Part shown: piece after piece, positions 6,019 through 64,000 of the stretch
Layout: every line of letters starts with the position of its first letter
Position numbering within the stretch: the first letter of the stretch is position 1
Source: Antedon mediterranea
Taxonomy: Eukaryota > Echinodermata > Crinoidea > Comatulida > Antedonidae
Direction: 5' to 3'
Assembly: GCF_964355755.1 (NCBI RefSeq)
Contig: NC_092670.1
Coordinates: forward strand, 6,721,001-6,785,000
DNA: 64,000 nucleotides
Translations under genes and position numbers: made by a program
The notes under the pieces: model-generated
Told to the model about the DNA's origin: nothing
Databases searched by the model: none
What the model saw: the letters and a program-made list of their open reading frames with translations, nothing else

Positions 6019-6181
6019 GCGTGGATGGTTTAGCTATTGATGGAATTGGAAATAAACTTTATTGGACAAGTACTTCAGAAGACAGAATTGAAGTAATAAA
6101 TTTGGATGGAACGGACAGAACAGTTCTTTTTGACATGAAATTGGCTGAGCCACGTGCAATTAAAATAGACAAAGTAAACGA
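6019..6181 (+). CDS. Exon: LDLR class B (YWTD) propeller, blade part
   Basis: Acceptor TAATTTAG precedes the exon and donor GTATGT follows it. It reads [19 protein letters not shown], then a [11 protein letters not shown] strand typical of a YWTD blade. Entry phase is 1 and exit phase 2: the terminal GA joins the A of the next exon to make Glu. Earlier blades must lie upstream of the window, or in sequence I could not recognise. Confidence 0.8.
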
Positions 6182-6507
6182 GTATGTAATGGAACTAATA
6201 ACACCTGGTTCGTTTTGTATCTTGTTTATCTCAACTTGGAGATAAACTGTTTCAATAAAAATTCCACTACGTTATGAATGTCATAACATACCATTGTTGT
6301 AGAGGCATCAACACGGCTCATTTACTATTGAAGAATGTTAGGCTTAATGTGTTTCTCTGAATGTCATTAGTGATAAAACATTGGCATCTTTCAGTATAAA
6401 ATAAAATAAAATAAAATAACAACAATAGTAATAAGTAACAAATAGTATAGATCAACTTAGATCTTCATAAAGTAATTAGTAATTTAATTTGTTAATTATA
6501 AAAAAAG

Positions 6508-6644
6508 ATACTTGTATTGGACTGATTGGGGACCTGGAAATGAGATGATAGAGCGTGCGAAGCTAAATGACTTGAATGCCACTAGAACCGCCTTGGTGAC
6601 GACAGGACTTATATATCCAAACGGACTTGTTTTATCAGTTCCAG
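6508..6644 (+). CDS. Exon: YWTD propeller, continuation
   Basis: Reads YLYWTDWGPGNEMIERAKL, an almost canonical LDLR class B repeat, then ends LIYPNGLVLSVP before donor GTAAGT. The acceptor is purine-rich (a run of A then AG), so it is weak by inspection, but the phase (2 in, 1 out) and the domain continuity fit on both sides. Confidence 0.8.
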
Positions 6645-6943
6645 GTAAGTTATGAGAAACTATACATAATTATTGTATTGAGTTCAAGTGAACAAATTAA
6701 TTTGAAATGTTTTTTCAAGGACATTTAATTTTAGTAATGGTAATAATAGCAATAGACGATGGTTTAAACTATTTTTTTGTAAATTTTATTTGTGTAAACA
6801 GTTTAGTTTAGTTCGAGTAACAGACAAACAGAGAGACAAATAGATAGATAGATAGATATTTTGTATAATTATATGCTTGTTGAAAAAAAATACCGAGATA
6901 CATACTATTTTGTACAACATGCCACCGTTCTATTATTTTCAAG
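6645..6943 (+). other. Intron with GATA microsatellite
   Basis: Intron between the second and third YWTD exons. A short (GATA)n tract lies at about 6841-6857. An (AAAAT)n tract is in the preceding intron at about 6395-6418. Nothing else seen. Confidence 0.6.
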
Positions 6944-7192
6944 ATGGAAAGATGTATTGGTGCGACGCAGGAACAGATAAAATTGAAGAAGCTAATCTTG
7001 ATGGAACCAACCGAACAACAATATTAGATGTAACTGGACAACACCCGTTTGCTATCGACATTTATAAAAACTATCTATACTGGTCAGATTGGATTGGAGG
7101 CGTGTATAAAGTTAATAGAAGGACTGGAATATCATCAAACCAAAGTATCGATGGCCGACTTAATCAACCAGGAGGTTTATACATTTTCACTG
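6944..7192 (+). CDS. Exon: YWTD propeller, last blades
   Basis: Contains DGKMYWCDAG, then KIEEANLDGTNRTTIL, then NYLYWSDWIGGVYKVNR, so it covers most of two blades. It ends LNQPGGLYIFTG before donor GTAATA; the GLYIF stretch resembles the strand that closes the six-bladed propeller. In LDLR and LRP proteins an EGF module follows the propeller; here the next exon I can find is already a HYR domain. Confidence 0.8.
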
Positions 7193-7819
7193 GTAATACT
7201 TGTATTTGATAAATATTTTAAAATATCTATTTCCCACTGCAAGTTCCAATATAATAGCATAAACAGTATATTAAACCGAGTTAAAATATTCTATATTTTG
7301 TTCTAAACATTACTCTTTGGACTAAAAATACGTTATGAAACTATTTGTTTTGATATTAGGATTGACACCCAAGTAATATAAAACTGATATTCTGACTTCA
7401 ACACTTTCTATAGTTTATGTAGACTACCTACCGCCACAGATTCTGGTATGAGTATGGGGAGTATGTATAGCCATACTAACCACATGTGATTTATTTTGAT
7501 GTTCCGGTTCATAACTTTTGCATCTAAACCGTATAAAACCAATTGCTATTAATTCATTAAAAACGATAAAGGTTAATGGTTAATACTGAATTCAAGCATC
7601 TTATTATGTAAATATACCTATATTTTAACTACTTTAAACACCTACTTTTAATTATCACAAATGTACTTATATGTATATTATAAATATATTCACCAATGAG
7701 ATGTCTTAGTCACACTCACACACACAAAGCCTCATGCACTTGGAACAAGCCTCTACAATATATTCGAGCGCTCTCAAACTCTCAATCATTCCTTAAAACA
7801 ATATTGACATTTCTAATAT

Positions 7820-7990
7820 TATTTATTTATTTATTTATTTATTTGGAATTACACCTTTAGATCGGTGGCACACTTAGCACAAAGGTGCATCCTTCACAAT
7901 ATAAAATATAACAATTAACAGAAAAGTAAAAAAAGGCAAAAGCAACTATCAACCCCTATCCTACCCCCCACCCCCAATTTACATCGATAC
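7820..7990 (-). repeat. Retroposon 3' end with (AAAT)n tail
   Basis: Read on the minus strand, a unique segment (GTGCCACCGATCTAAAGGTG and surroundings) ends in about seven AAAT units at 7829-7852. That is the usual look of a truncated LINE or SINE 3' end. The family was not identified. It lies in the intron between the propeller and HYR1. Confidence 0.45.
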
Positions 7991-8115
7991 ATACAGTAGA
8001 TCATTATTAGGATGAAAAGTCGTTCCAACCAAGTTTAATGCTGTCAAGAGAAATTTTATTAGTTTTTATTTCCTATGTTCAGTATCATAAAAATATTGTG
8101 ATTTCTTTTCTATAG

Positions 8116-8391
8116 ATAATGTATTGACTATTGACTGCCCGACAAACGTCACTTCAAACAATTATATCGGAGAAGAATTTGGTTTAATACAAATTACCAC
8201 AGATGAAGGGAGTCCAACTGCCACAGTCACGTGGGATCCTCCTGTGACAAGTGACAATGGAACAGTGACTGTAGTGTCATCACCGTATGGGTCAGGTGAC
8301 ATGATACCAATCGGTACTCACGCAATCACCTTTACAGCAATTGGTTCTGCTGGCAACAATGAAACTTGTGACTTTTATATCAAGGTTGAAG
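8116..8391 (+). CDS. HYR1 exon (class B)
   Basis: First HYR domain, 92 codons. Opens DNVLTIDCPTNVTSNNYIGE, so it is a diverged class B exon. It keeps VTWDPPVTSDNG, SGDMIPIGTHAITFTA and the closing CDFYIKVEG. Compared with the younger B exons it lacks three residues after DNG and has GSAGNNETC in place of DPYGNIDTC. Acceptor CTATAG, donor GTGAAA. Confidence 0.9.
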
Positions 8392-9430
8392 GTGAAAATC
8401 TGAAAAAAAGTTTTTCAAGAATTTTATATTGTATCCTTAAGGGAAAAAAACACCAATATGAATAATCTTGGAAACTAAAAACTATATACAGTTTAATATA
8501 TCAAACCATATTTTCAATTATATAATGTATGTGGATAATCAAAGTCAGCAAATTATCCAATCAGATTAAATGAAGAACGCATGATCAATCATTACCGTAA
8601 CACCAGGTGCTCAATTCCTACAACGCAGCAATGAATCCTTCAGGTCAAACACATTTCTACAAAACCTTTATAGGTTAGTTTCTGTTTTGTTTGCAGAAAC
8701 ACGAGGAATTATGATATTGTGTTATTTGATTCTAGAATATGGAATGTTTCAATTATAAACACACATGAATGTGCATCAGCATCTTTTTTTAGCAAATAGC
8801 TAATTACTAAATATGGTGCTTGCTTTTTAAGTTCTTCCATTCTCTATTAAAACAAATGTCCTCCGAGCTTGTCTCTCTCTTTATAGCGCCCTTCCCCCTC
8901 TCATCTGAGAAGTGTCTCACTTCTCCAAATTATAATATAATAATTATTAATCGTATTATTTCGAAAATAATGAATAAATAAATATTAAACGAATAAATAA
9001 ATACAACTGTAGAGTAACCGTTTCTCTAAAAACCATGCAGGTAATTTCACAGCTCTGTCACATCTTGTGGTTTCAGGACTAGGTATTGGTTTGTTTATTG
9101 TTGGTCAGTTGTATCTTGTTTAATATTTGCGATGGCTGGATATATCGTTAAGACGGTTAAACTTTACTTGCGGTACAGAAGAATACTCTGGAGATGGGAC
9201 TTTAGCAACAACTGTCAACTATTGATTAACAGTCAAATACCACCTGCTGACACAATTAAATCTCTTTGCTAATGAGTATTACAATTATGCAAAGCAATTT
9301 GGCTTTGGCGTTTTAAATCCCATCCTAAGATTAGCGGTCTGTTTTTGTGAAACTCATGGTATAATGGGGTTACTTCAATGTAAACATTAATGCGAACACG
9401 ACATAAAATATCCATTATCTGCCTTTGCTT
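8392..9430 (+). other. Intron, left part, nothing recognised
   Basis: Intron after HYR1. Contains AT-rich DNA with short ATAAATA runs near 8970-9000; no exon or transposon feature seen before the gag-protease relic. Confidence 0.5.
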
Positions 9431-9439
9431 GTCCAATTA

Positions 9440-10200
9440 CCTTTTCTATACTTCTTGATTTCATAAACTTGTTATTTTTGTGAAACTTTTAGAAATTAAT
9501 GAAATATGAGCACCACTATCAATTAATTCACTGACTTTGTGACCTTCTACATGTACCATAATTTGAGCATTAAAACGTTGTGGAAGACTACTAGAAACAT
9601 TATCAGAAATACTATCAGTAACATCGTCTACTATAGACATCCGTGAGGGCTTCAAAAGCGATATTAGCCCCTTCAGAAGCTGAAAATCGACCCTCATTTC
9701 CAGCTACAGTAGTTCTAGTTTTCCGGATGATGATTATGTTTAGGTGTAATATTAAGAGGGCTGCGTCCTTTAATACTACTAGGGTAGGTAGGCCTACTCT
9801 GGTGTCGTGGGTGGGTTAGAAGTGTAAGTATAATTAGAAGAGTCGTTCCTGTTGTGTCTTTGTTCAGTTCTTCACTAAGTGAAGATCGTCTGAAGTAATC
9901 ATACTTCTATAATAATTGTCACGTCTCTTTTCACGGTCACTACTCTTTGAATGATCTCTGTATCTACCAGATCGAAAGTTTCATTCGCACTTTCGACTTG
10001 TTTTACAATTTTTAAATACGCTGTCTAAGGTTTGTGCACCATATTCATAACATTTCAATTGCAATGCTGGTTGTAAACCACCAAGAAATCGTCGGAAAGC
10101 TAAAAAAAAAAGCGGAAAAAAAGCCATAATCAGGAAATCATCGCGAACAAAACTTCTCAAATCTGCAGCGTACAATTGTAAGGATTCATTCGGCTGACGT
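9440..10200 (-). pseudogene. LTR-retrotransposon gag-protease relic
   Basis: Minus strand, 5' to 3': a gag-like piece (10175-9981) with YAADLRSFVRDDF, FRRFLGGLQPALQLKC and EYGAQTLDS; a basic Arg/Asp/Ser-rich linker; then a retropepsin-like piece (9697-9461) with VHVEGHKVSELIDSGAHISLI, in which D-S-G-A is the aspartic protease motif. Frames change between pieces, and no RT, integrase or LTR is seen. It differs from the complete gypsy element at 34-39 kb, which has DTGA and a different gag. Confidence 0.6.
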
Positions 10201-10362
10201 GGTCTAGCTAGCGTTCATCATACGTTTGAATGCATACATTTTATGTAGGCCTAACTAAACGTTATTATTGTATGTACTAAATCAAGATTTTACAATTATA
10301 AAAGTGTAATTATGATTTGATTGTTAATAATCCTTGTTTATTCCTGTTGTATTAATAAATAG

Positions 10363-10611
10363 ATAATGAGGATCCAGTCTTGGTCTGTTCACCTAATATT
10401 ACAACTACTACAGCAGATGGATCAGATCAAGCAGTCAATGTGAACTGGACTGACCCAATAGTAAATGACAATTCTGGTGAAGGTATAACACCAACATCGA
10501 AGTACAATTCTGGAAACAATCTATTTAATATTGGCAGCACTGATGTTATATATGACGCAGTTGATAGTTCAGGCAATGCAGCAACATGCACCTTTACAAT
10601 TATAGTTACTG
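10363..10611 (+). CDS. HYR2 exon (class C)
   Basis: 83 codons, opening DNEDPVLVCSPNITTTTADG; Cys is followed by Ser-Pro instead of Pro-Pro. Contains VNWTDPIVNDNSGE, FNIGSTDVIYDAVDSSGNAATC. It resembles HYR47 as well as HYR7, 10 and 13, so class C predates the local triplication. Donor GTAAGC. Confidence 0.92.
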
Positions 10612-10690
10612 GTAAGCATACATTGTCTCTTCTTTCCCGCTTCTCCTTCCTACTGAAGTATCAACACTTAATCTATACAGTATATCAATA

Positions 10691-11523
10691 GAGAGAAATG
10701 GCAAACCGACGTCTAAAATCCGAGTGGGTATAAAATCATAACAAACCGTTGAGGGCGGCATATTTCCTATGTTTATACACGTGAATCATGGCGTCGTCTA
10801 ACCAATGTTGTTGCTGTAACGCTCATAATTCTTTTCTATTTGTGTATTTAGTCATCCATCATTCACAATCATATTCCTAAAAATATCTCATATCTGTAGG
10901 TCTACATTAGACTAGGCCTATAGTATTATAGTAGAATGGTGTTATCAAGTATTCATCACTGGCGGTAGCCCCCCTGCAGGAAGCATCACTAACCACATAA
11001 CAAAATGGCAGTTGTCAATCTGAAACTAAATGCTAGGCCTACGTCTACTAGAGATGCTCTATTTAGTCTTACTACCTAGCTAGGAGAGGCCTAGCAGCAC
11101 CCTAGCTAAAGTAGTAGTAGTACAGTATGCAATAAAGAATTTCCAATATTATTATTATTATTATAATAACCTATAATCCGTGCTAGGCTCGCTCGAGTAG
11201 GCCTACTCGAGGGTACTACACAGCATCAGCGAAACTATCTAGGGCCTAGAGCTGGGTACAGTATATAACAAAAACGCGTCTTAATTCAATCCAAATTGAA
11301 ATAAAATATGTTAAGATTTGCCCATATAACATTAAAATTGTTAAGGGTGTTGCAAAAAAAAGATACTGCTATTATGTGTGTTTTAAACGTTCTTTTCTAA
11401 CTACCTTTTTAACTCAACCCATCGGAATTTCCCATACAAAAACATGTGGCGAAATGGTTTGTTTACAATCTATACCCACTCGGTGAAACTTGAGTGACGT
11501 CATCGCGGTTCGCCATTTCTCTC
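10691..11523. mobile_element. TA-flanked MITE
   Basis: Inverted ends GAGAGAAATGGC(A/G)AACCG lie directly inside TA dinucleotides at 10689-10690 and 11524-11525, and a second inverted patch (CCGAGTGGGTATA) follows about 25-45 bp further in. TA target and short inverted ends fit a Tc1/mariner-type non-autonomous element. The interior is rich in AGGCCTA and CTAGCTAGG motifs and has no coding potential. Confidence 0.65.
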
Positions 11524-11799
11524 TATTATGGTTAATTCTGACATATAGGCGAGTACAATGCAAAAACTTCGGTACAAATCTCCGCCTTAGATACCTACAT
11601 TATCTATCTCAGATGTACCACGAAACGTAGATTTGATAACATTAGTTTTCACATCGACGCTCTTGTTCCACTTTTGTCCACGACAAAATTTAGCGTAAAC
11701 TATCGAAATTTGTGGATATCAAAGGGTTATTTTCACACACTCGCGCTGTTGTTCAACTGGCTTCCAGGTACGTCACTTCCGGCAAAATGGCCGTTGGTG

Positions 11800-12450
11800 G
11801 CGCCATTCAATATTAAATAAAACATATTTTAGTGGTTCAACGTATCGTGAACTACTGAAATTAATTTGTTTTAGATATTCAACTAATCAATTATATTGAT
11901 TAAAGGCATTTACTTTACGTGAACTACAATTTGTTTTAGTAATTTAACTTTTATTGAAGGCCTTTACTTTTATGTGAACTACAATTGATTGAAATGATTG
12001 AATGATTGAAATATATATTTATACTGGGTAACCTCTTCAGTCAAAGACTGGTCTCCCAGGGGGCGGTGATCAGTGGCTATGATGTACTAATAGACCGGGT
12101 AACCCCCTACCCGTCTCGAAAGATTTACTAGGTTCTTTAAAGTACACACGAGCTAGATGTGTACACTGGACCTACGGTTTATAGTCCTTATCCGAGAAGA
12201 CTCGTTCTACCACCAGTACCATGGAGTGAGTGAGCCTCGAACCCCTGCCGATGTTATGGCTACGTAATTACGGTTCCACTGTCTTAACCGCTCGGCCACT
12301 CACTCACTGGATTTTAGTGATTGAAATGAATCGTGAACTACAATTTATTTGTTTAGATATTCAAATATCAATTATAAAGGCCTTTATACAATTTGTTTTA
12401 GTAATTTTACTAATTATTTATGCTATTTATTAATCATTTATCAAATTTAG
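11800..12450. repeat. Diverged repeat units split by a SINE
   Basis: A unit of roughly 75 bp with GTGAACTACAATTTGTTTTAG and AAAGGCCTTTA occurs at about 11845-11935, 11935-11990 and again at 12325-12420. The SINE at 11990-12308 separates the last copy. Confidence 0.5.
11990..12308 (-). mobile_element. tRNA-derived SINE
   Basis: On the minus strand the 5' head has an A box at 12298-12288 (TGGCCGAGCGG, followed by TTAAGAC as in class II tRNAs such as tRNA-Ser) and a B box at 12244-12234 (GGGTTCGAGGC). A body with GGATAAGGACTATAAACCG and TTAAAGAACC follows, then a tail of TTGAA/ATGA-like units. The head is degenerate and cannot fold as a working tRNA. GATTGAAATGA on both sides may be the target duplication. 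Confidence 0.65.
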
Positions 12451-12982
12451 GTGCAATTCAATGTTACTATAGGAGGCAAGGCCGACCAGGGAAACACCTT
12501 TACTATTTATCGATTATTTCTGTTGCTTGCTCTATTTATAATTATAAATGGTGTCTACTGCGACCGAAATATAAGTAGGCTACGAAAGTTGTTATTTGAT
12601 CATTTTGTTCCAAAATTAACAAGATGCTGTCATGATATATTGTGATACAAATGTTAAAGCCCCGCTCATTGCCACCCACGTTGATAAAAAATGTTTTTGG
12701 TCTCTTGGTACGGTCACGTTACAGACTGTTTCAGTGATTGATGACCCCTATTACGGTTTCCTCCTGTGTGTAACGTTTAAATAATATATATAATAATATA
12801 ATATACGTATACTGTTCTTTACAATTATATTATTTGCAATAATACCAATGAAAGTTTTACATCATTACAGGGAGAATTAATGTACATTTTGTTTACAAAT
12901 AAATAAATCTATTGAGTAACTTTTTCCTTTACGTTCCTAACCACCGATTGCTGTCAAGTGTCCATACATCATTACTGACAGG

Positions 12983-14455
12983 CAGTGGTGGCGCCAGGAT
13001 CTTTCCGACGCGGGGGCTAAATTCCCCGACGGAGGGGCTATACGAGCGAAGCGAGCATCGCTAGGCTGGGGGGAAGGGGGCCGCCGAGGGCCCCCGGTGG
13101 GGGTCCAGGGGCGACGCCCCCGGAAGCAACGCGTTATAGCGTAATTTGAGGCCGTTTTAATCAGATTTAGGGTAGCCAACTTTTTCCATTTTGTATGGTA
13201 TACAGATAAAATACTGTGCGATAAAACACATAGCACTAGATCCGATGCGATGACTGTGTAAATCCATCCTTTCAATTTTAAAAATGAAGTTCAATATTAT
13301 GCCTATCATAGAAAATATACACGAACGTAAAACTTCCCACGGGCCAAGATGTATATATCGTTATATTCGCAGAGGCGTTGGCAGGTTGCTGTCTGGTGGG
13401 GTGCGAACATTGTAAGTGCGCGAGACTAACACCCATGGGCTGATCTGAAAGAACATTTTGACAATTAAATAGAGCTGCTAGGTCTCCGGAAATTGCAATT
13501 ATACATTGATATATGAAAAGAAATTACAAGTCTACCAGAGAACTAGCCCACCGAGGTTGATATAGAGCTAAGAACATTTTAAACAAGTAGAGTTGTTAGG
13601 TTGGATTATACTATTTCGAAAAAAAAAGAAACAAAATATATACCTCTCCAGGACCAAGAGGTTGAGCTGCTAAAAAAATTGTGAAAAATAGAACTGCTAG
13701 GTACCTGGAAATTGCACTTTAAATTGCCCATATTGATAAATGAAACAAAATTATAAGTCTACAGGACCAGCCCGCCATGGATGATTGGGTGGAGCTAAGA
13801 AAGATTTGAAAAATAGAGTTGCTAGGTCCCGGAAATTTAACGTATTATACTTCGAAGCATAAACAAAAATATATACCGGTACGTCTCCAGAACCAGCCCT
13901 ACCATGGATATGGAAAAAAAAATGAAAAAAAGAGAACTCTATGTTCCCAGACAATGCACTAACTGTATATTGTACATCGAAATATGAAACGAAATGTATA
14001 AGTATCCATGACCAGCTCTATAACTGAGGACGATTGAGCTAAGACAATTTTGAAAACTAGAGCTGCAGGTCTTCAAAAACTACACTTATAACTTAAAAAA
14101 ATTCAGGCCTAAAGGCCTAAAAAAGTGACCCTTTTTACCTTTTATTTGGAGGGGAATGCGTCCGCAAGCGTAGACCATTTTCCTTCGGGGAAAATCAGTT
14201 CATTTCCCAGATGTGAATCTGGAATTTCGATGTATGATGAGCAGTTCATGATATACAGGACATTGGAAATGTAATAACTTAGCTATAATAAATAAATCAT
14301 TTTGTTTGACAAATCCAAAAGAAATTACTCACATTCTTTAGTTTTCGCCATCTTGGCTGATGGCTTGATCACAAGTGATCTGGTCCACTACTACCCCCCG
14401 ACGAGGGGGGCTACAGCCCCCCGTTGCCCCTCCCCCCCCGCTGGCGCCACCACTG
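12983..14455. mobile_element. Non-autonomous hAT transposon
   Basis: Perfect 15-bp terminal inverted repeats CAGTGGTGGCGCCAG and CTGGCGCCACCACTG, flanked by a perfect 8-bp direct duplication CTGACAGG (12975-12982 and 14456-14463). Eight-bp target duplication and CAGTG ends are diagnostic of hAT. No transposase frame. Both sub-terminal regions are very GC-rich with G and C runs, unlike the AT-rich neighbourhood, and the core is an imperfect tandem array (13480-14090). Confidence 0.92.
13480..14090. repeat. Internal subrepeats of the hAT element
   Basis: About six imperfect units of roughly 100-130 bp, each with a version of GAGCTGCTAGGTCTCCGGAAA, an AT-rich stretch with TATATGAAA, and CCAGCCC...GAGCTAAGA. 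Subterminal or internal arrays of this sort are common in hAT elements and may bind transposase; here this is an inference. Confidence 0.7.
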
Positions 14456-14936
14456 CTGACAGGGGACGTAATCAATCATAATTGGTATACATTTCGCATC
14501 TTACCAAACTTATTTTTCAGTACAGGTTCAAATCTCACACATACTGTACACAAGACCGAATATAATAATTAGCCTATATTGTTCTCAATTCGTACCTTTT
14601 TTAAACTCTAATTTGCTATATTACCCTGGAAGCTATATTTTTGGCGTACCTAATTTATGGATCACCATGAAACATCACAAAATAAACATACATTACTCAT
14701 CAGTCATATGTAGCAGCAGCATAGGTGTCACCCGGGCTTCAATTTCCAGAGGCGTTGGTCATGTTTTCGAGGACCATTCGGGTACACCCACTAGAGAGTA
14801 CGCGAGCGAAGCGTGCGAACCCTCTAGTAATATGTTAATTATTGTATAATGCATTTTAACCATGATTTTCTTCAATCACTTGGTATGATTTTTACTATAG
14901 ATATCATTAATTATAATTATTATCTTCATGGTTTAG

Positions 14937-15191
14937 ATTCAGAAAATCCGGATATTATAGATTGTCCAATTGGTATGATTGTTAACACAACAACTGGTGA
15001 GGCATTTGCAATCAATGTCACATGGATGGAACCGACAGCAACTGATAACTCTGGAGATACTTCTGTACCAGTAGCAGACTACAGTTCTGGTGATAATATG
15101 TTTGCAATTGGTGACACAAAAGTCCAGTACAATGTCTCAGATTCAGCTGGTAACTTTAATGATAGCTGCAATTTTGTAATCATTGTTGAAG
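14937..15191 (+). CDS. HYR3 exon (class A)
   Basis: 85 codons, opening DSENPDIIDCPIGMIVNTTT. Has WMEPTATDNSGD, SGDNMFAIGDTKVQYNVSDSAGNFNDSC. A second in-frame acceptor (ACTATAG ending at 14900) lies 36 nt upstream and would add 12 residues (IINYNYYLHG within), so two forms are possible. Donor GTAAGA. Confidence 0.92.
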
Positions 15192-15894
15192 GTAAGACTG
15201 TTTCCTATAAGAGGAAATTAAATTTGAGTTATAGTTTTTCACGCTGCTGATCTAGCCCGCTACGTCACAAGAGATGACATAATCCGATATAAAGCAAGCA
15301 GCAATTTTAGTTAACTGAGAGACTGACATTTTTGCGAAAATGGAAACTCCACTATAATTTATAGGTCCCAGCTGCTAGACACAAAAAACGTCTGGGAAAA
15401 GAGTCTAACGGTTGAATGACAAATCCCAAATCATTTATGGTATTTATGAGTCCCATGATATTATATAATACTGTAAATGAAAGTTTTTGTTTGTACCATG
15501 GAACTATAATTATAGTTCTATGTTTGTACTAAAGTGACAAAAATTGAGTCTGTATTTCATATCAAAGTTATTCACTTCTGTAACAAAACAATAATATTTA
15601 TTCACATATAAAAAGAGAAAAGAAACGTTTAATTATAACTAAAAAACCATTCTCTGAAAGACAATTTAAGTATTTTTTGCTTTAAATTACATTTTTTTCA
15701 GGTAAAATAACTATTATGTGACAATAAAATGACACATTCAAAAACAAATTTGAAATAAAAAATATTTTTCAGAGAGACAATATATCTTTAAAACTGTTAC
15801 GTTATAAGCGAGCAGTGTTTTTTGTACGAAATATTTCTTGTTTAATGTGGTTTTGTCAAATTCTAATTTTTTTATTCCTGTTATTTTTGTGTAG
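15192..15894 (+). other. Intron, nothing recognised
   Basis: Intron between HYR3 and HYR4, AT-rich. A small palindrome around 15490-15525 (ACCATGGAACTATAATTATAGTTCTATG) is the only structure noted. Confidence 0.5.
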
Positions 15895-16179
15895 ATAATG
15901 AAAGTCCAATAATTGACTGCCCGACAAATGTCACTTCAAAGAATTACATCGGAGAAGGGTTTGGACTAGTAAATGTCAGCACAGATATAGGACGTCCAAA
16001 TGCCACTGTCACCTGGAATCCTCCTGAGACAAGTGACAATAGTGGTGGGCTTGTTACTGTAATGTCGTCATCTTTTGAGTCTGGTGACATGATACCATAT
16101 GGTACTCACACAATCACTTTTACAGCAACTGATCCTTATGGCAATATTGACACCTGTGACTTTGGCCTCATTGTTGAAG
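15895..16179 (+). CDS. HYR4 exon (class B)
   Basis: 95 codons with no internal Met near the start. Opens DNESPIIDCPTNVTSKNYIG; has GRPNATVTWNPPETSDNSGG, SGDMIPYGTHTITFTATDPYGN. Distinguished from HYR6, 9 and 12 by Lys for Asn in SKN and by the Arg-Pro in GRP. Donor GTAAAA. Confidence 0.92.
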
Positions 16180-53857: not shown

Positions 53858-54224
53858 GTAAGTTTGCTTTAAGTTTGGCTCTATGGTTCATGGTTTCATG
53901 CAGATTACATATTGTTTTCGCATCTTAGTAATAGTATAATCTTTGTTGGCCATTTGCTGACTCTCATCTTCTTGCAAATAATATAAACTTTTAGTATGTA
54001 TAGAGTGTTATAAAAACATTTTAGTTACAGTTAAAGGTTTTTTTCCTAAAGTAAAATTTAGAAAGTACCTTCACTCTTAGATTAAACGAAACAAAAAAAA
54101 AATCCTTCAATCCACGTATTGTTGTATGTTGTCTTTAACAAAAGTGGAAGAATTTGCTTTCTTACGATGAAAACAAATAAATTACATAATTCTTTTTCTT
54201 GTTATTTTTTTCCGACAAACTTAG
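53858..54224 (+). other. Intron, nothing recognised
   Basis: AT-rich intron between HYR45 and HYR46. No repeat or exon seen. Confidence 0.5.
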
Positions 54225-54470
54225 ACTACGAGGCTCCCATTTTCTATACTTGTCCATCAAATATTACTATGGCTACTGATCCTAATCTAGCATCAGCAAT
54301 AGTGAACTGGAGTGACCCAAGTGTGTCGGACAACAGTGGAGAGATCTTGTTGAGTGTTCAGTCTCATATGTCTGGTGACATGTTTAGAATAGGGCAAACA
54401 TTAGTTGTATATAATGCAACTGATTCTTACAACAACATAGCAGTTTGTTCTTTCATTATTCATATTTATG
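54225..54470 (+). CDS. HYR46 exon
   Basis: Opens DYEAPIFYTCPSNITMATDP; VNWSDPSVSDNSGE, SGDMFRIGQTLVVYNATDSYNN, ends IHIYG. Acceptor AACTTAG lies after an interrupted pyrimidine tract. The GN turn is NN. Confidence 0.91.
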
Positions 54471-54769
54471 GTAAGTGCTGATTTTGTTTTATGATACATA
54501 TGTTGATGTCCTGTAAGATAAGATAACAACCACAGAAGAATTCAGCCCTCTTTATTTAGTATACGTATAGTTTGAAAATGACTTGGCGTGACCGAGTTAT
54601 TTTCCATAATGTTACCTGTGTTGAAAATCATGATAGTGTGTTAAACATAGAAACACTTTTATTTGTAATGATAGTATCTAAATTTTGGTTTCAAGTTGAT
54701 TTTGTTCACTCGAAATGTTTTACATTACATTTAGTATTTCTTCAATTTACTATTGGTAATTTTCAATAG

Positions 54770-55018
54770 ATGATGATGATCCAAACTTGCAGTGCCCATC
54801 TGATATTACAACTAATACAACATATGGCCAACATGACACATACAATGTCACCTGGAGTGATCCGATTGTAAATGACAATTCTGGTGAAGTTATAAAACCA
54901 ACGTCCAAGTACACATCTGGAAACAATGCTTTTAACATTGGAAGTACTGTTGTTATATATGATGCAGTTGATAGCTCAGGCAATGCAGCAATGTGCAACT
55001 TTACAATTACAGTTACTG
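54770..55018 (+). CDS. HYR47 exon (class C)
   Basis: Opens DDDDPNLQCPSDITTNTTYG; VTWSDPIVNDNSGEVIKPTS, FNIGSTVVIYDAVDSSGNAAMC, ends ITVTG. A class C exon 34 kb from the others, so it records an older, long-range copy. Confidence 0.92.
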
Positions 55019-55303
55019 GTAAGTATTCTTTCATTGTTTGTTGTATTTCAATTGAATATAATTTAAAATCAAAGCATTTTATGTACCTTTGCAAAGATGA
55101 AAACAAAACACGAGGCAGAAATAAGTTATTCATCGGGAACCAATGTAATTTCCCGGTATTTTTAAAACATACGCCACAGTTTTTAAACCTTAGTTTATTG
55201 TAGTTCTTATAGTAACCCAGTTTTAGATTAGTATTTAAATATACTTTGATATTTACATTAATTTATTTACAAAGAAATATTACAGTGCTCTATTTTATTT
55301 TAG

Positions 55304-55546
55304 ATAAGGAAAATCCAGTTATCAATAACTGTCCAATTGATACGACAGTAAACACTACTACGGGACTACCGACTGCTAATATATCTTGGATAGAACCAAC
55401 AGCAATTGACAATTCTGGGTATTGGGGTCTCACAGCAGACATAGGACCAGGAAGTGAGTTCCCAATTGGCAATATTGTGGTGACATACACTGCTGAAGAT
55501 CCATATGAAAATACTGCTACGTGTTCATTTACTGTCACTGTAGAAG
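55304..55546 (+). CDS. HYR48 exon
   Basis: Opens DKENPVINNCPIDTTVNTTT; ISWIEPTAIDNSGY, SEFPIGNIVVTYTAEDPYEN, ends VTVEG. Somewhat class A-like (VNTTT) but shorter. Confidence 0.92.
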
Positions 55547-55738
55547 GTATGTTAATACTTATTTTGACCAAAGTGATTATGAAGTAGTCAGTAGCTTTGC
55601 TATTATATATAATTGAAATAAGTACGCTCTCAAAAGGAAAAAAAACAATCAAGTACATCTAATCTGGTACATATACTGTACATGTTTATTTACTTGTTTA
55701 TATGTATAAAGATTTGTGTTATCTTTTTATAATTATAG

Positions 55739-55987
55739 ACATCGAAGCACCAGTGTTTACATTCTGTCCTGATAGTCAGTCAGTAAACACTACTAACGGA
55801 GAATATATCGGTGTTGCTACATGGAACACACCAACAGCTAGCGACAATTCAGAAACTTTACCAATTATCGTTGGCTCACACAACACCACATTTAAATTCC
55901 CAGCTGGGAATACACTGGTACAATACACTGCAACTGATCCATACGATAATGTTAATACGACGTGTACTTTTACCATTACAGTTGAAG
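55739..55987 (+). CDS. HYR49 exon
   Basis: Opens DIEAPVFTFCPDSQSVNTTN; ATWNTPTASDNSET, FKFPAGNTLVQYTATDPYDN, then VNTTCTFTITVEG. Two Cys; Ala replaces Ile of the usual F-x-I-G strand. Confidence 0.91.
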
Positions 55988-56438
55988 GTATTCTTTTGAG
56001 TAATTTCTCTTGTTGATTCATTTCATAGTTATTATTACAATAACATTGATACTGTTTTTCCGTTATTTTCTTATAACTTGTTTTAAGATATTCTATATCT
56101 ACTCAGTACACTATGTAAAATACGATATTAAATACACGTGGATCTGAACTTTTCTCTGCCATGAGCCATCTGAATAAACATTGAAGCTATTTCATTTTAC
56201 AATTATGATAATATATGTTGTCATCATTTGTAATGTATACGTTATAAGCCTATGCCCCTGTGGCCGTTTTTTCACATGTATATATTCTGAGATACCTCTC
56301 CATTTCTTTTTTCTCCATGTTCTTCATATATATACATATATATATATATATATTTAAAGAATGCAAATAAAGAAAGAATGCATTACTGTACTTGTTTCAT
56401 TAAGTTATAATAATATCTAAAAAAACTTGAAATCACAG
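55988..56438 (+). other. Intron with LINE-like 3' tail
   Basis: The stretch about 56240-56377 (TATGCCCCTGTGGCC, an (AT)n run at 56331-56353, then GCAAATAAAGAAAGAATG) resembles a truncated LINE 3' end on the plus strand. The same AAATAAAGAAAGAAAG ending is seen on the LINE fragment at 31349. Confidence 0.45.
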
Positions 56439-56690
56439 ATAATGAAGCACCAATTATTACGTCTTGCCCTGACAATATTGAGACAACTACTGATACTATA
56501 ACAGATTCTACCACTGTGACTTGGACACCTATTACTACAGCTACCGACAACTCGGGTGTAGCACCAAACATCACTACTACTATTGAGCAAGGAGCAACAT
56601 TGGCCATTGGGAATCATACCGTTGATGTAACTGCAACCGACAGTTCTGGAAACATCAACACCACATGTTTTTTTAATATTGAAGTTTTAG
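56439..56690 (+). CDS. HYR50 exon, Thr-rich
   Basis: Opens DNEAPIITSCPDNIETTTDT; TVTWTPITTATDNSGV, TLAIGNHTVDVTATDSSGN, then INTTCFFNIEVLG. Two residues longer between W and DNSG than the consensus. Thr-rich first half may carry O-glycans (inference). Confidence 0.9.
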
Positions 56691-56964
56691 GTAATAAATT
56701 ACATAATGTACTCATCCTTTGTATTGAAACTGCATGTAAATGTATTCTAATTTATTAACCCTTTAAATTAATTATTTTGGCCTTCAATATCTAATTATAA
56801 TCTAACTCAACCTGATTAGAGTATACTGGATTTCCCTATGGTAAAAATCAGTATCGAAATCAGTATCAGTACATATACCAGTTTACTGTATTTGACATTA
56901 TGTAAATTTATATATTTTTGCAGCTAAAACTATCCAAATAATCATCTTAATTTCCTTCTTGTAG

Positions 56965-57210
56965 ATGATGTACCTCCTGTACTTACATGTCCAAATGATA
57001 TATTTGTTATGCTTGGAAATACAAGTTCTACCGTTGTTGTCAACTGGACACCAGCTAGTGTTTTTGATAATTCTGGGCTGGCTATAGTGCTTTATTCTTC
57101 ACCAAAGATGAGTGGTGACAAGTTTAATATTGGGACTTTTGTTATAACTTATACTGCCATTGATGCTTTTCACAATATAGCTACGTGTACCTTTACAATA
57201 ACTGTTAGAG
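56965..57210 (+). CDS. HYR51 exon
   Basis: Opens DDVPPVLTCPNDIFVMLGNT; VNWTPASVFDNSGL, SGDKFNIGTFVITYTAIDAFHN, ends ITVRG. Singleton; HN replaces GN. Confidence 0.91.
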
Positions 57211-57458
57211 GTAAATGAAAATCAACTCAATTTTTGTAATTTTATAGCGATTTAAACTTTACTGGTATAATAAGTACTTGGCTGTAGGCGACGCAATTAG
57301 CATAATACATTCCACTGGCTGCATAAAAAAGATTTATAATTCAAAGGTGCATGACCAAGTAGCTTGTCATATGATGCCAAATTGTAGAATGGTTATAAGG
57401 TCTGATATATCTGCTGACCCATATAAAATATCTAAAACTGTATTGATTTTTTTTATAG

Positions 57459-57701
57459 ATTTGGAATTACCATATTTTGAAAAATGTCCGGAATCGTTTA
57501 CCGTAGGAACAGATCCTGGATTAGCAACAGCTAATGTGTCATGGGTTGAACCAGTTGCTATTGACAATAATGGTATAAACAGAACAGTGCAGAATTATTA
57601 TCCCAATCAGATGTACAATATTTCAACATACACTTTGATGTATATTGCTTATGATAACTCAAATAACAATGCAACATGTGAATTTGTCATTTCAGTGGAA
57701 G
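57459..57701 (+). CDS. HYR52 exon
   Basis: Opens DLELPYFEKCPESFTVGTDP; VSWVEPVAIDNNGI, YNISTYTLMYIAYDNSNN, ends ISVEG. The F-x-I-G-T strand is altered to Y-N-I-S-T, adding a sequon. Confidence 0.9.
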
Positions 57702-58302
57702 GTAGGTATAACGCAAGCATTTGAATACGCAATCATTTGAATACCTAAATATATTTTGAGATTGGTGAATTGATTCCTTATTTTTAAACATCTTTTTGTA
57801 ATTTGCACTTTATAAATTCAAAACCATTACCCATTCACACGTACAATACAAATGTAACAGAGCTTTCAGATGCTAGTTTTGTCATGGTCGGTATTATGTA
57901 AAATAAACGCCTAGATTGTTTCTGTCGTCTTGAAAATACTCGATTTAAGCTCAGGTATTATACGTAAGAAATATTAAGTTGAAACACTGTCTAGAACCTG
58001 GACTATATATAAACTCCATTTAAAAAAACTCATGACTCATTGGTGTCGAAGATACCGACCGTACATTTGTTTTAAGAGTTGACACAGAAACATTTTTACA
58101 CGTTTGTATCAAAGTTATCTGTAAATCGAGTATTAGTTATAGCCTACTTAGTTACTTAAATGCATATAATGGCAGGTTTACATCTTTCATACCCGGCTAA
58201 CTTATCTACCAGTACAACCGCAGTGTGTTTTAACCTAAAGAATAACACATGTTGTAGACTTATATAATATCAAAATGAAACATTGTTTTTTGTTCTTTCC
58301 AG
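57702..58302 (+). other. Intron, nothing recognised
   Basis: 600 bp intron between HYR52 and HYR53. No exon, repeat or transposon end recognised. Confidence 0.5.
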
Positions 58303-58563
58303 ATAAAGAATTTCCAAATATTATATGTCCTGATAATATAACAAAGGAAACAGATCCTGGAATAGCCTTGACATTAGTAACTTGGAATGTACCTGTACCA
58401 ACTGATAATGTAGCAATTTTGCCAACCAGCGCAGTGGCTATTCCTCTCGTTTCTCCTCCTGTACAAATTTCTATTACTGGTAATGTGGCATATGAGCAAG
58501 GTTACACAGCAGAAGATACTTCAGGGAACATTGCTTCCTGTACATTCTATATCACGGTTGAAG
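58303..58563 (+). CDS. HYR53 exon, long centre
   Basis: 87 codons. Opens DKEFPNIICPDNITKETDPG; VTWNVPVPTDNVAILPTS, a Pro/Val/Ile-rich centre (VSPPVQISITGN), then GYTAEDTSGNIASC. Lacks the F-x-I-G-T strand, so the middle strands probably differ from normal HYR. Confidence 0.88.
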
Positions 58564-59103
58564 GTATTGTACATTCTTCAGTTTCTGAATCTCATGGTTT
58601 ACACTATTGTTTTAGAAAAACATGAGTATGTTGAAATCGACATCTTACAAGTATTAATATGTTGAAATTTACCAGGGACGACGTTGAATTGTTGCATTAA
58701 AATATACATTGGGTAATGGTAATATCTGTCAATCATGTGAGAGGTTGGGTTCAAAACCGTTACCATTTGTTTGTATCTCCAGTCAATGTTCTTTATACTC
58801 ATTGCCTCGTATCTCGTGCTTGATCTGTGTGTGTAAATTCTTCGTGGTACCATAAACGGTATGGTACATGATTAAAAAACCTATGGGATTATCTTCCATT
58901 TTGCTGATCGTGGTCCTATACACTAAGCCTACTGCGAGAGCAGTCTTTTACCGAAGAGGTCACCTCTGAATACACGATAGACAAGTCAGTAAAAGTGAGA
59001 TTTCTGTGGATACAATTTTAAGATAATCTGATTGCTGGTACAAAAGAAAAAAGAAATTCTAATAAATAATTTTCAACATGGTGTATAAATATTTTTTTAA
59101 CAG
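58564..59103 (+). other. Intron, nothing recognised
   Basis: 540 bp intron between HYR53 and HYR54. Nothing supported. Confidence 0.5.
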
Positions 59104-59346
59104 ATAAAGAACCACCTGTGATTACTGACTGTCCTCCGGATATGAATTTGACAACATCTTCAGGTATAAACTATACTACTGCTACCTGGACAGAACCAAC
59201 GGCAGAAGATAATGCAGGAACTCCAAAACTTGTAACAACACACAGTAGTGGAAGCAAGTTTTACACAGGTGACACGATTGTAACATACACAGCCGAAGAT
59301 GGTTTTATGAATACTGCTACGTGTAATTTTACAATAAATGTACAAG
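59104..59346 (+). CDS. HYR54 exon
   Basis: Opens DKEPPVITDCPPDMNLTTSS; ATWTEPTAEDNAGT, GSKFYTGDTIVTYTAEDGFMN, ends INVQG. Donor GTTAGT. Confidence 0.92.
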
Positions 59347-59845
59347 GTTAGTGTTAAATTTTAATTAGTTACTACTTCTACTTTTTTTATATTTTATATA
59401 ATTCTTTAAAAAAATATTTCCAAAAATAAAAAACAAACAGGCATCACATAACAATGGTAATAAGATATCAAATGATGTAAAGAAATAATCTGGTATGTCA
59501 TCGTAAAATTAAAATGAAGAGTTCACAAAAAATGAACACAATTTAAGAGCATGTTATTCTTCTACAAGTGAAAATTAATAATTAATTGATGATTAATATG
59601 CTTACGATATTACTTTACTTTATTGCCAACAAAAACATAAACAATCATCATTAACAAAAGGAGATTATTAACTTCATATCCCAAAATGATGGTTTGATCA
59701 TTTAAACAAAAGTTATAAATCCTCATATTCTAACGATATCTCATATTGTTATTTATTAAGTTACACTCTTATAATAAATGTTTCACTGTATCACTTTTAC
59801 AATAGGAGAATGATTTATATATATATATATGTATAATTTGTTTAG
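59347..59845 (+). other. Intron, nothing recognised
   Basis: 499 bp AT-rich intron, with a short (AT)n run at 59815-59830. Nothing else. Confidence 0.5.
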
Positions 59846-60097
59846 ATATTGAACCACCAGAGGCGTTGACCTGCCCAGAGAATGATACCTATAGTACAGA
59901 CCCTGGAGTTCCTTACAAAAAAGACATTAATTGGACAGTACCTGTATTCCAGGATAATGTACCTGGACTCTTAGATTACAGCAGTAATATAAATCCGTCA
60001 TCAAATACATTTCAACTCGGAACTACAATGGTGAAGTATGAATCTACAGACACATCAATGAACACTGGGTATTGTATTTTCTACATAACAGTCATTG
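59846..60097 (+). CDS. HYR55 exon
   Basis: Opens DIEPPEALTCPENDTYSTDP; INWTVPVFQDNVPGLL, FQLGTTMVKYESTDTSMN, ends ITVIG. DNVPG takes the place of DNSG. Confidence 0.91.
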
Positions 60098-60245
60098 GTA
60101 AGAAATTACATTGCTATATTTTTAAAATCCCTCCTCACTCCATAATGACCGCTATATTGGAGCCATTGATACCCATGTGCCTGCAGTGTGAACATGTGTA
60201 TAATGAACAAAAATGTACAAAATCTCTCTTCTTTTATAATAATAG

Positions 60246-60494
60246 ATGATGAAAACCCACAAATATCCTGTCCTGACAATGTGAATATCCATGCTGGTGA
60301 CGGGTCATCTGGAGCGGTGGTCAAATGGTCACTGAATATCACCGATAACACCGATGACTTACGAGTGTCTGGGACCGGTACACAGTACAATCAATCTGGA
60401 CATGAGTTTCCAATTGGCGTTACAACATTAGAGTATGTGGTAACAGATGGATTTGGAAACATGGATAACTGCACTTTTACAGTAATTGTTATAG
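60246..60494 (+). CDS. HYR56 exon (class I-like)
   Basis: Opens DDENPQISCPDNVNIHAGDG; VKWSLNITDNTDDL, HEFPIGVTTLEYVVTDGFGNMDNC, ends VIVIG. Shares DNT and IGxTTLEY with class I, so it may be near the ancestor of that class. Confidence 0.91.
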
Positions 60495-60626
60495 GTACGA
60501 CTTTTTATTCATTTGTTACGGTATACCATGAGAGTGTTATGCATCAAACCGCCACTTTCTTAACATAGCAAGCATTAAATACTGTTATGTTGTAATATCT
60601 AATATTTGAATTTATACTTTCTATAG

Positions 60627-60869
60627 ATGAGCAAGATCCAGTATTTAAAACATGTCCAGATAGTATTATTACAGAAACTGATCCAAGGGCATCGACTACA
60701 CGTGTAAGTTGGGACACTCCTGACATTGAAGATAACTCAGGTCAAGTGTCACTAGTTGCGTCAACGAGTCCTGATAGTTCGTTTAATATTGGAACCACTT
60801 CTGTTGTATACATTGCTAGTGATAACAGCAATAACATTGCAATATGTTCATTTAATGTCACTGTTGAAG
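60627..60869 (+). CDS. HYR57 exon
   Basis: Opens DEQDPVFKTCPDSIITETDP; VSWDTPDIEDNSGQ, SSFNIGTTSVVYIASDNSNN, ends NVTVEG. Confidence 0.92.
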
Positions 60870-60993
60870 GTAATTCAGATAAAAGAATGTTTACAATAAT
60901 AATGTATTCGAAATGTTACAATATTACACAAAACCTAATTTATATGTATGTGCTGGACAAAAATAATTATTGACACAATTGTTGTTCTAATAG

Positions 60994-61233
60994 ATACCGA
61001 AGCGCCTGTTTTAGAGTGTCCTCGTGACATCATTGATGTAGCAACCACCACATTGGGAATCCGCATTACTTGGCCAGATCCCAGATATACTGATAATTCG
61101 GAAAAATCTGTGAATATAAGTTCAACACGAACATCAGGAGATGTATTTACTTTTGGGACACATACTGTAACGTACACTGGAATTGACCAATCAGAAAACA
61201 GCGGTACATGTCAATTTGAAATCAAAATAGGAG
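60994..61233 (+). CDS. HYR58 exon, GC donor
   Basis: 80 codons, last HYR. Opens DTEAPVLECPRDIIDVATTT; ITWPDPRYTDNSEK, DVFTFGTHTVTYTGIDQSENSGTC, ends EIKIG. The donor is GC (GGAG|GCAAGT); all other donors here are GT. The otherwise perfect AAGT after GC is typical of GC-AG introns. Reading on without splicing meets a stop at about 61280. Confidence 0.88.
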
Positions 61234-61630: not shown

Positions 61631-61744
61631 ATTCGTGTACTTCTTCACCTTGTCAAAATGGAGGAACCTGTGCACAGTTAGAGACAGACTTTGAATGCAA
61701 CTGTCCTGTATTATATGAAGGCAACTTATGTCAAATACCACCAG
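61631..61744 (+). CDS. EGF-like domain exon
   Basis: 38 codons with six Cys in EGF order: DSCTSSPCQNGGTCAQ, then FECNCPVLYEGNLCQ. One exon, phase 1-1, as for many EGF modules. The D-x-N/D and aromatic-hydroxylation signature of calcium-binding EGF is absent, so it is probably not calcium-binding. Confidence 0.92.
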
Positions 61745-62065: not shown

Positions 62066-62332
62066 GTGAGCCAACAGCAGAAATTCAACCTTTATCGAAG
62101 AGTGTTAATTTGCAAAGTACAGTCACTTTTGAATGTATTATAACTTACTCAATTGATTGGCGTTGGTATAAAGACGACGTTGAACTCTCATCTGAAACAC
62201 AAAGTCTAAAGTTCCTCACAATTAATGAAGTTGGTCTGGAAAATCAAGGCTATTATTACTGCAAAGCGTTTGGAGTATCACCACATGATGGCGTAACAGA
62301 TAATTCAATGAAAGCAGTTCTTGTTGTTAAAG
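62066..62332 (+). CDS. Ig-like domain exon
   Basis: 89 codons. Opens GEPTAEIQPLSKSVNLQS. VTFECIITYSIDWRWYKDD gives the B-strand Cys and C-strand Trp; LENQGYYYCKAFGVSP gives the D/N-x-G-x-Y-x-C F-strand signature. It ends in a VLVVKG strand. Phase 1-1, acceptor ATATTTAG, donor GTACAC. Confidence 0.88.
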
Positions 62333-62549
62333 GTACACGTATTACAGTACTTACTTCAAAGCTACTAGAAAATAGACACAAATTGTAATTTAAGAAGGGA
62401 TCATTATAAAGATACTGTCTGTTCAGAGGTGCATTATGAAATAATTTGATATCCTCATAAGGAATATTTTCTATTAGTTTATATTTTCAAAAAAATAGTC
62501 CAGAGAAAAAAAATAGATATAGATATAAACTTGTAACTCTAAAAAAGGG

Positions 62550-63066
62550 AATAACACTCAGACATACGTGTTGATGCCATGTAATAACACTCAGATATAC
62601 GTGTTAATGCCATATAATAACACTCAGACATACGTGTTAATGCCATGTATACACTCAGACATACGTGTTAATGCCATGTAATAGCACTCAGACATACGTG
62701 TTAATGCCATGTAATAACACTCAGACATACGTGTTAATGCCATTTAATAACACTCAGACATACGTGTTAATGCCATGTAATAACACTCAGACATACGTGT
62801 TAATGCCATGTAATAACACTCAGACATACGTGTTAATGCCATGTAATAACACTCAGACATACGTGTTAATGCTACGTAATAACACACAGACATACGTGTT
62901 AATGCCATGTAATAACACTCAGACATACTTGTTAATGCCATCTAATAACACTCAGACATACGTGTTAATGCCATGTAATAACACTCAGACATACGTGTTA
63001 ATGCCATGTAATAACACTCAGACATACGTGTTAATGCCATGTAATAACACTCAGACATACGTGTTA
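62550..63066. repeat. 33-bp minisatellite, main array
   Basis: About 16 copies of a 33-bp unit (AATAACACTCAGACATACGT, then GTTAATGCCATGT), with point changes and one 31-bp copy. Because 33 is a multiple of three, both strands show long open frames with an 11-residue repeat; these are artefacts. Lies in the intron after the Ig exon and continues at 63338-63445. Confidence 0.95.
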
Positions 63067-63334
63067 AGCCTGGTTTCCATTAAAATCGCTACAGCGTTTC
63101 CATTAAAATCGCTACACGCGCGGATGTCGCCGACGCAATCGGGAATGCTCCCCGATTCATCGCAGTCAAATCGGCAAAGTTCAACCATGTTCAACTTTGC
63201 CGATTTTGTCGGCGATGAATAGTATACGCGTACCAAAGAATATTTAGCGCTCGCGTACTAGATCCCCGATAAATTCTAGCGTTTCCACAGAATCGCTACG
63301 CTCTGTCGTGTAGCGATTTTATGGAAACCAGGCT
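63067..63334. mobile_element. 268-bp MITE inserted in the minisatellite
   Basis: Inverted ends AGCCTGGTTTCCAT and ATGGAAACCAGGCT, extended by AAAATCGCTA-like inner matches. TTA flanks both ends (63064-63066 and 63335-63337), fitting a 3-bp Harbinger-type target duplication; a TTAA duplication is the alternative. GC-rich interior with a 13-bp hairpin (63169-63181 with 63193-63205) and a tandem copy of TTTCCATTAAAATCGCTACA. Confidence 0.8.
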
Positions 63335-63337
63335 TTA

Positions 63338-63445
63338 AGGCCATGTAATAACACTCAGACATACGTGTTAATGCCATGTAATAACACTCAGACATACGTG
63401 TTAACGCCATGTAATAACACTCAGACATACGTGTTAATGCCATGT
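63338..63445. repeat. 33-bp minisatellite, right part
   Basis: About three further copies of the same unit, in register with the array left of the MITE. Confidence 0.92.
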
Positions 63446-63932
63446 CGACCAATCAAGTTCTGGTATTTAATACCTTAATATAATACTTAGCGCTGTAATA
63501 AAACATTTGAGATCCACCGAGGGGTTTTCTTTGTCTTGGGTATCAAACTGTACAACGATAGAAAAGGCAGTATGTGTTATATTACATTTTCCCAGTTGTT
63601 TAGTCCTACTTTAGGTAAAAAAAGACTGTTTCCAGTTACTTAGATCAAATACGCACTGGAAACTTACCCCTATGCCTTTGTATTAACATAGAATGTGTAG
63701 TATTAGAAAACATATAAACTTATGTTAAGTAACATCAATTGAAGTTTATTTATGCATTCAACGAAAGGGTATAATTAAAATCTGTTTTCACATGTTATAG
63801 ATTATAACATTCATTATCAATATAGATTGCATTATATGAATATGATGTTTAGTATTCTTTAGAAATAGCTATTGCTATTGAATAATATGGTGCAGTACAA
63901 TTCTTACTAACTTTGTATCTATTATTATACAG
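63446..63932 (+). other. Intron, nothing recognised
   Basis: Unique AT-rich DNA up to the acceptor ATTATTATACAG. No feature seen. Confidence 0.5.
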
Positions 63933-64000
63933 ATGCTATTGCTGTGCCAACAGTGTTAACTTTCCTAAATTTTCAATTTACTTCGGCAATGAACAACCCT
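63933..64000 (+). CDS. Exon start after the Ig domain, possibly SEA-like
   Basis: Phase-1 entry, reading DAIAVPTVLTFLNFQFTSAM then NNP at the window edge. The pattern hydrophobic-x-F-x-x-x-F-T-x-x-x-x-x-P resembles the first strand and helix of SEA domains, but 22 residues are too few to decide. Confidence 0.55.

Follow-up and report, generated by a model that had tools for sequence, protein, structure and literature searches.

The stretch of the Antedon mediterranea genome analysed here (the window: 64,000 nucleotides, C1:6721001-6785000, in a genome of 354 Mb on 18 contigs) holds the middle part of a gene, W, which is predicted to encode a giant adhesion G protein-coupled receptor (aGPCR), longer than the largest one known from humans. 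Joining the exons within and beyond the window gave a + strand model of 104 coding exons (C1:6691389-6791522, 100,131 bases) with 25,467 nt of coding sequence, equal to 8,489 codons without a stop, in which the phase of each exon equals the preceding end. The model reads as a signal peptide, 17 HYR repeats of which the first is divergent, a D8C-like part, 8 HYR repeats, one YWTD propeller and 58 further HYR repeats (83 in total), followed by EGF, Ig and SEA domains, a linker, the GAIN/GPS region, seven helices (seven-transmembrane domain, 7TM) and a short tail. W was compared with its paralogs P, X1 and a third copy at C1:7.112 Mb. The features are given in window numbering carried beyond both ends (C1 position = value + 6721000):

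-29611..-29548, + strand: signal-peptide exon, left of the window
-27290 to -7947, + strand: 25 HYR exons, one divergent plus 16, then 8
-14333..-14127 and -13962..-13783, + strand: D8C-like exon pair
-7632..-7387, + strand: YWTD propeller exon 1 of 4, outside the window
6019..6181, + strand: YWTD propeller exon 2 of 4, phase 1-2
6508..6644, + strand: YWTD propeller exon 3 of 4, phase 2-1
6944..7192, + strand: YWTD propeller exon 4 of 4, phase 1-1
8116..22978, + strand: 16 HYR exons, most of them repeating a three-exon module of about 1.5 kb
31480..32143, + strand: two HYR exons between two long introns
39885..52485, + strand: 24 HYR exons, a 12-exon block in two copies
52754..61233, + strand: 16 HYR exons, of which the 15 from 53184 onward lack a close copy in the array
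61631..61744, + strand: EGF exon (PF00008, 32.1 bits, above cut-off)
62066..62332, + strand: Ig exon (Ig_3, 32.2 bits, above cut-off)
63933..64000, + strand: SEA exon 1 of 2, cut by the window end and extending to 64045
64353-64554, + strand: SEA exon 2, right of the window
64697-65227, + strand: linker of two cysteine-bearing exons, GPR128_N-like
65796-66818, + strand: GAIN, three exons
67418-67582, + strand: GPS exon with HL|TNFAILM
67864-70519, + strand: 7TM and tail, four exons
70520-70522, + strand: stop codon TAA

A HYR profile derived from the window's own repeats and run over all six frames gave 62 matches in the window, made up of 58 domains, three split N-terminal pieces and one chance match (at 25562, E 0.11). 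All of them lie on the + strand and none on the - strand, and the domains span 8187 to 61235. Left of the window, the hidden Markov model scan found 24 HYR exons, the divergent first one being additional. The set of 82 exons searched against Pfam-A contained all 58 window exons and consisted of the divergent first exon together with 81 of the 82 profile-found exons of W, one that crosses the border between two fetched loci being left out; 81 of the 82 matched HYR (PF02494) at E<=0.01. Member 1 scored 55 bits against a cut-off of 21.7, and HYR and HYR_4C were the only families listed for the scanned repeats. Profile and Pfam thus bear out an earlier note on this DNA, which had described 58 HYR exons on the + strand between a YWTD propeller and EGF-Ig exons.

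Pairwise identities reveal how the array may be read as a series of copies. In a numbering from 1 to 82 that covers the profile-found exons and leaves the divergent first repeat outside, repeats 1-41 are mostly copies of the three-exon module and repeats 42-67 are copies of the twelve-exon block, while the membrane-adjacent repeats 68-82 have no copy at >=75% identity in the array. These last 15 repeats correspond one-to-one between W and P, with DNA identities of 99.2-100%, and therefore the length of the array changes away from the membrane. A structure model of the repeat (one exon, 82 aligned rows) was all-beta with a mean pLDDT of 91.6. Foldseek returned no match to it at E<=0.001; the top match, a titin/obscurin-like Ig entry at E 0.014, is weakly compatible with an Ig-like sandwich. 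Residues 1-8100 of the W model contain 282 N-glycosylation motifs. A retrotransposon piece, a + strand open frame with a reverse-transcriptase match (30073-31053, RVT_1 48.4 bits), sits in the intron between the HYR exons ending at 22978 and starting at 31480.

The four propeller exons together encode 265 residues, roughly what a full YWTD propeller of six blades takes up, and match Ldl_recept_b with 108.5 bits, above the Pfam cut-off. The earlier note covered the DNA from 6019 on, but the propeller does not start there: its first exon lies across a 13.4-kb intron at -7632..-7387. In P, propeller exons 1 and 2 are only about 2.4 kb apart, so that some 11 kb have been gained in W or lost in P. 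The first propeller exon and the HYR exons further left also rule out the propeller as the N-terminal domain. Hence the proposed order of propeller, 58 HYR repeats, EGF and Ig is present, but it is just the middle of the protein, with the propeller internal and 25 more HYR repeats to its left. Extension to the left, which had been suggested as a search for a signal peptide and further propeller sequence, yielded both the signal-peptide exon and propeller exon 1. The signal-peptide region resembles the start of the next gene in 27 of 31 aligned columns. A further candidate exon (LTVVSQWF..., at -29516) was dropped from the model, as the signal-peptide exon, with its GTGAGT donor at -29548, connects in phase to the exon at -27290. 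Still further left, at about -48756 to -42786 (L016:1244-7214), lie long open frames that we read as Polinton/Maverick-like; of the three frames searched, one matched Chromo (35.5 bits) and, slightly below the cut-off, rve (32.1 bits), and the other two matched no Pfam family.

To the right, the suspected SEA start near the window edge proved real, with 29.7 bits to PF01390 over both exons (cut-off 26.4). The GAIN/GPS and seven-helix exons for which an extension to the right had been proposed were all found, followed by the stop codon. GPS (50.8 bits, cut-off 22.5) and 7tm_2 (136.4 bits, cut-off 20.6, positions 4-250 of 250) lie after SEA, on the same strand and in phase, in agreement with the enormous aGPCR that the earlier note had named as one option beside a membrane-anchored hyalin-like matrix protein, and the joined model of 8,489 codons fits its expectation of well over 5,000 residues. 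Whole-genome scans also found both the GPS (C1:6788442) and the 7TM (C1:6789521) of W. In aGPCRs, cleavage at the GPS follows the HL|T motif rule; the GPS of W has the C/W/C/C pattern and an intact motif (...CHCDHL|TNFAILM). The GAIN region matches ADGRG6 (6v55, E 2.5e-16) over almost its entire length (residues 2-286 of 286), and the closest solved structures to GPS-7TM are those of ADGRG2 (7wui, E 1.7e-57) and ADGRG6 (21du, E 2.6e-57). The Ig-SEA intron contains a 33-base minisatellite at 62550-63067 (15.8 copies) and 63335-63445 (3.4 copies), a stretch skipped in the alignment of P with W.

Of the 103 introns of W, 102 are GT-AG; the exception, a GC-AG intron, follows the last HYR exon (60994-61233). 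For this exon a GT donor at 61248 had been chosen, and was replaced on inspection by the GC donor at 61233, a choice that the same site in P supports. The ends of the HYR exons were picked with phase 1-1 imposed, and a phase control therefore counted usable signals in each phase (GT[AG] donors at most 6 bases from the expected end, [CT]AG acceptors within a 15-base stretch). Donors were usable in phases 0/1/2 in 1/79/12 and acceptors in 0/68/0 of 82 HYR exons of W; in P, the numbers were 1/96/13 and 0/86/0 of 98. This phase agreement is far from chance, although it does not prove each single junction.

P is a tandem paralog (C1:6520412-6599908) 170-190 kb from W, whose HYR exons were obtained by the procedure used for W and whose remaining exons were mainly placed by similarity to W. 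Its model has 119 exons, 98 of them HYR, and 9,564 codons with no stop and fitting phases; the GC-AG intron shared with W is its sole non-GT donor. The order in P is signal peptide, D8C-like, 2 HYR, propeller, 96 HYR, EGF, Ig, SEA, GAIN/GPS and 7TM, and from the propeller onward it is common to both genes. The 33 kb fetched upstream of the first HYR of P yielded no further HYR, and therefore P lacks the N-terminal HYR block of W. Aligned stretches of the two genes are 98.6% (8,989 bases) and 98.8% (13,330 bases) identical. Two open models of such length are the strongest argument that the predicted order is that of a real protein.

The genome-wide scans suggest that W and P belong to a larger family. 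Of 180 GPS candidates 150 were scored, giving 139 matches, and for HYR the best 150 of 1,417 candidates were scored. For at least 15 of the 139 GPS matches, a listed HYR lies on the same strand no more than 30 kb upstream, a measure of proximity and not a gene model; among those compared, no listed HYR lay downstream of a GPS. Eight of these 15 fall on the + strand of C1:6.5-7.3 Mb. Propeller matches occur near same-strand HYR arrays at C1 6531546, 6727051, 6866352, 6897124 and 7274109, and likewise, on the - strand, at C1 39602906 and 39673923. Two of the propeller copies, C1:6866322-6867481 (L021) and C1:6897094-6898253 (L022), lie 31 kb apart and are 99.3% identical over 2.6 kb; there is no listed GPS between them, and in the piece fetched for the second, propeller exon 1 is absent. 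They may belong to one receptor with two propellers. HYR arrays with no listed GPS within 30 kb downstream were seen at C10:11.87-11.89, C4:29.47-29.49, C1:14.30-14.44 and C1:39.05-39.14 Mb, possibly secreted hyalin-like proteins. A separate tandem amplification on the - strand (C7:2285068-2320980) comprises 11 GPS matches at spacings of 2.9-5.7 kb, of which ten have equal scores. A homeodomain search showed that the same genome carries a compact cluster of 12 Hox genes (C2:7827797-8206132), all on the + strand save one posterior gene (7848422, -). We read the cluster as Hox1-8, 9/10 and three genes of 11/13 type, the set found in ambulacrarians (echinoderms and hemichordates). A search for COX1, intended for the mitochondrial code, gave no matches.

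In the collinear C-terminal part of W and P, 56 of 6,521 coding sites differ (0.86%) against 201 of 9,960 intron sites (2.02%; p 1.5e-9). The ratio of nonsynonymous to synonymous substitution rates (dN/dS) is 0.243 over 2,150 codons, with 0.227 for EGF-7TM and 0.272 for the 15 membrane-adjacent HYR repeats. Against the third copy, in whose fetched piece the EGF, Ig and first SEA exons were not found, W gives 0.276 over 766 codons. At the level of sequence divergence, these comparisons show purifying constraint on the C-terminal part. The propeller gave ratios of 1.66 (W-P), 1.34 (W-X1) and 1.81 (P-X1; X1 is C1:6863540-6867481), and in W-P it differs from EGF-7TM with a Fisher p of 0.0005 or 0.002, depending on rounding.

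We favour the reading that W is one gene, predicted to encode one giant aGPCR of 8,489 residues, because of the open frame, the phases, the agreement with the paralog, the C-terminal constraint and the GPS and 7tm_2 matches; we give it a probability of about 0.87. Several points weigh against it. The model was built from genomic sequence alone and its function is inferred; it contains introns of 7.7, 8.5 and 13.4 kb, and near-identical tandem blocks are a type of sequence prone to assembly error. The phase agreement arises partly by construction, and in the control 3 of the 82 exons lack a usable donor and 14 a usable acceptor. The exons of P other than HYR and signal peptide depend on similarity to W and are not independent. 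Moreover, some parts are poorly matched by known families: D8C_UMOD reaches 24 bits (E 4.5e-5) where its cut-off is 27, GPR128_N reaches 23.4 bits, also below cut-off, and the GAIN region gave no hit to a Pfam GAIN model at E<=1, the GPS being the sole match. The divergent first HYR repeat, outside the window, matched no family in a separate Pfam search and for this reason is most likely the single miss of 82. Finally, the propeller ratios above 1 could reflect relaxed constraint in that domain.

Self-cleavage of the GAIN domain and a tethered agonist are described for aGPCRs in PMC12716839 and PMC11913874. By analogy, the receptor encoded by W would cleave itself at HL|T, and its HYR array would form a rod of some 0.3 micrometre that places the propeller far from the cell. 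The estimate is based on a spacing of about 4 nm for Ig-like domains. Distal binding or tension could then dislodge the N-terminal fragment, and the freed tethered agonist TNFAILM would be exposed to the seven helices. The most likely role of W would thus be that of a long-reach adhesion and mechanosensing receptor in the extracellular matrix, which we hold to be about as probable as not.

A less probable role for the same gene, which we consider doubtful, is that of a recognition receptor (immune, allorecognition or gamete-related), with a propeller that diversifies between tandem copies and a constant signalling end. The genes form a tandem multigene cluster, and propeller ratios of 1.34-1.81 stand against 0.23 for EGF-7TM, with a significant difference in W-P. 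Proven diversifying selection was nevertheless dismissed, as no ratio is significantly greater than 1 (binomial p 0.16, 0.30 and 0.10 in the three comparisons), and the loss of blade 4 residues through in-frame deletions in the propeller of P suggests relaxed constraint; relaxation and diversification would both fit the pattern.

It is considerably less likely that the locus holds two or more genes, namely a secreted hyalin-like propeller/HYR matrix protein and an adjacent EGF-Ig-SEA aGPCR. Arrays of HYR with no listed GPS nearby do occur in this genome (C10:11.87, C4:29.47 and C1:14.3-14.4 Mb). Yet the last HYR exon of W and the EGF exon meet in phase 1 across a 397-base intron, and no stop interrupts the joined frame; P has the same order and phases, and at 15 or more genome sites a listed HYR is followed by a GPS no more than 30 kb away. 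A search from -27000 to 9000 for the two signal-peptide exons of the family gave weak fragments (best E 0.17), other start exons, promoters and poly(A) sites not being sought. The genomic evidence therefore speaks against the propeller, HYR array and EGF-Ig exons being separate genes, the outcome by which the earlier note's proposal was to fall. Least likely of all is an assembly artefact or a decaying duplicate, with arrays inflated by mis-joined haplotypes or W a pseudogene: the 98.6-98.8% identity of W and P over aligned stretches, the transposon pieces in introns and the in-frame losses in blade 4 of P would suit it, but 104 and 119 exons run without a stop or frame break, exons are conserved more than introns, and, since P and W differ in N-terminus, HYR number (98 vs 83), transposons and minisatellite and eight GPS matches share one strand within 0.7 Mb, they are not simply two haplotypes.

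As a single predicted aGPCR, W is exceptional in size and architecture, and known proteins resemble it only in parts. ADGRG6 (GPR126) and ADGRG2 are its best matches among solved structures in GAIN/GPS and the seven helices, and ADGRG6 has SEA, GAIN/GPS and seven helices in the same order. The N-terminal domains of ADGRG6 are CUB and PTX; W instead has 83 HYR repeats, a propeller and D8C-like, EGF and Ig domains. Judged by similarity ranks, the relation of W to group VIII (ADGRG) would be one of resemblance. Hyalin, a secreted matrix protein of the sea urchin hyaline layer, shares the long HYR arrays; to our knowledge it has no propeller and no seven helices, whereas the W model carries a seven-helix domain in the same open frame. 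The propeller matches those of LRP-type proteins such as LRP2, LRP6 and LDLR (single LRP6 propeller 3sob, E 1.9e-45; LDLR 1ijq, E 2.2e-34). In LRP and LDLR proteins, the propeller is followed by an EGF module and set among LDL-A repeats, unlike that of W, which has HYR exons on both sides. ADGRV1 (VLGR1) is, like W, an aGPCR of giant size in which a single kind of beta-sandwich domain, there Calx-beta, forms a long repeat array ahead of GAIN. The repeats of W are HYR (81 of the 82 scanned) and not Calx-beta, and the 7TM of ADGRV1 matches W far less well (9fte, E 4e-13, vs 1.7e-57 for ADGRG2). PMC13197933 names ADGRV1 the largest aGPCR, and PMC11913874 gives it up to about 6,300 residues. Titles and abstract beginnings in the open-licence literature yielded no description of the W architecture. 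The sponge GPCR paper PMC4302439 has no HYR in its main text by term search; for PMC12716839, 'hyalin repeat' or 'HYR' is indexed in the full text and neither term occurs in the main text. Because of this possible mention and the open-licence scope, we make no claim of novelty for HYR repeats in aGPCRs.

Taken further, and only tentatively, the data may point to GPCRs larger than any described so far (8,489 and 9,564 predicted residues), which form a tandem family and serve as recognition antennae, in which a diversifying propeller is carried on a HYR rod of about 0.3 micrometre, the length is tuned by duplication of the three- and twelve-exon modules, and a fixed SEA/GAIN/7TM end turns binding or pull into G-protein signalling. 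If the transcript exists, W would take GPCRs past the size of ADGRV1, at roughly 6,300 residues. W and P would then also offer a natural length series (98 vs 83 HYR repeats with a conserved signalling end) for studying force sensing and spacer length in aGPCRs. Moreover, they would place a propeller inside a HYR array and provide an example of giant tandem receptors built by module-wise exon duplication.

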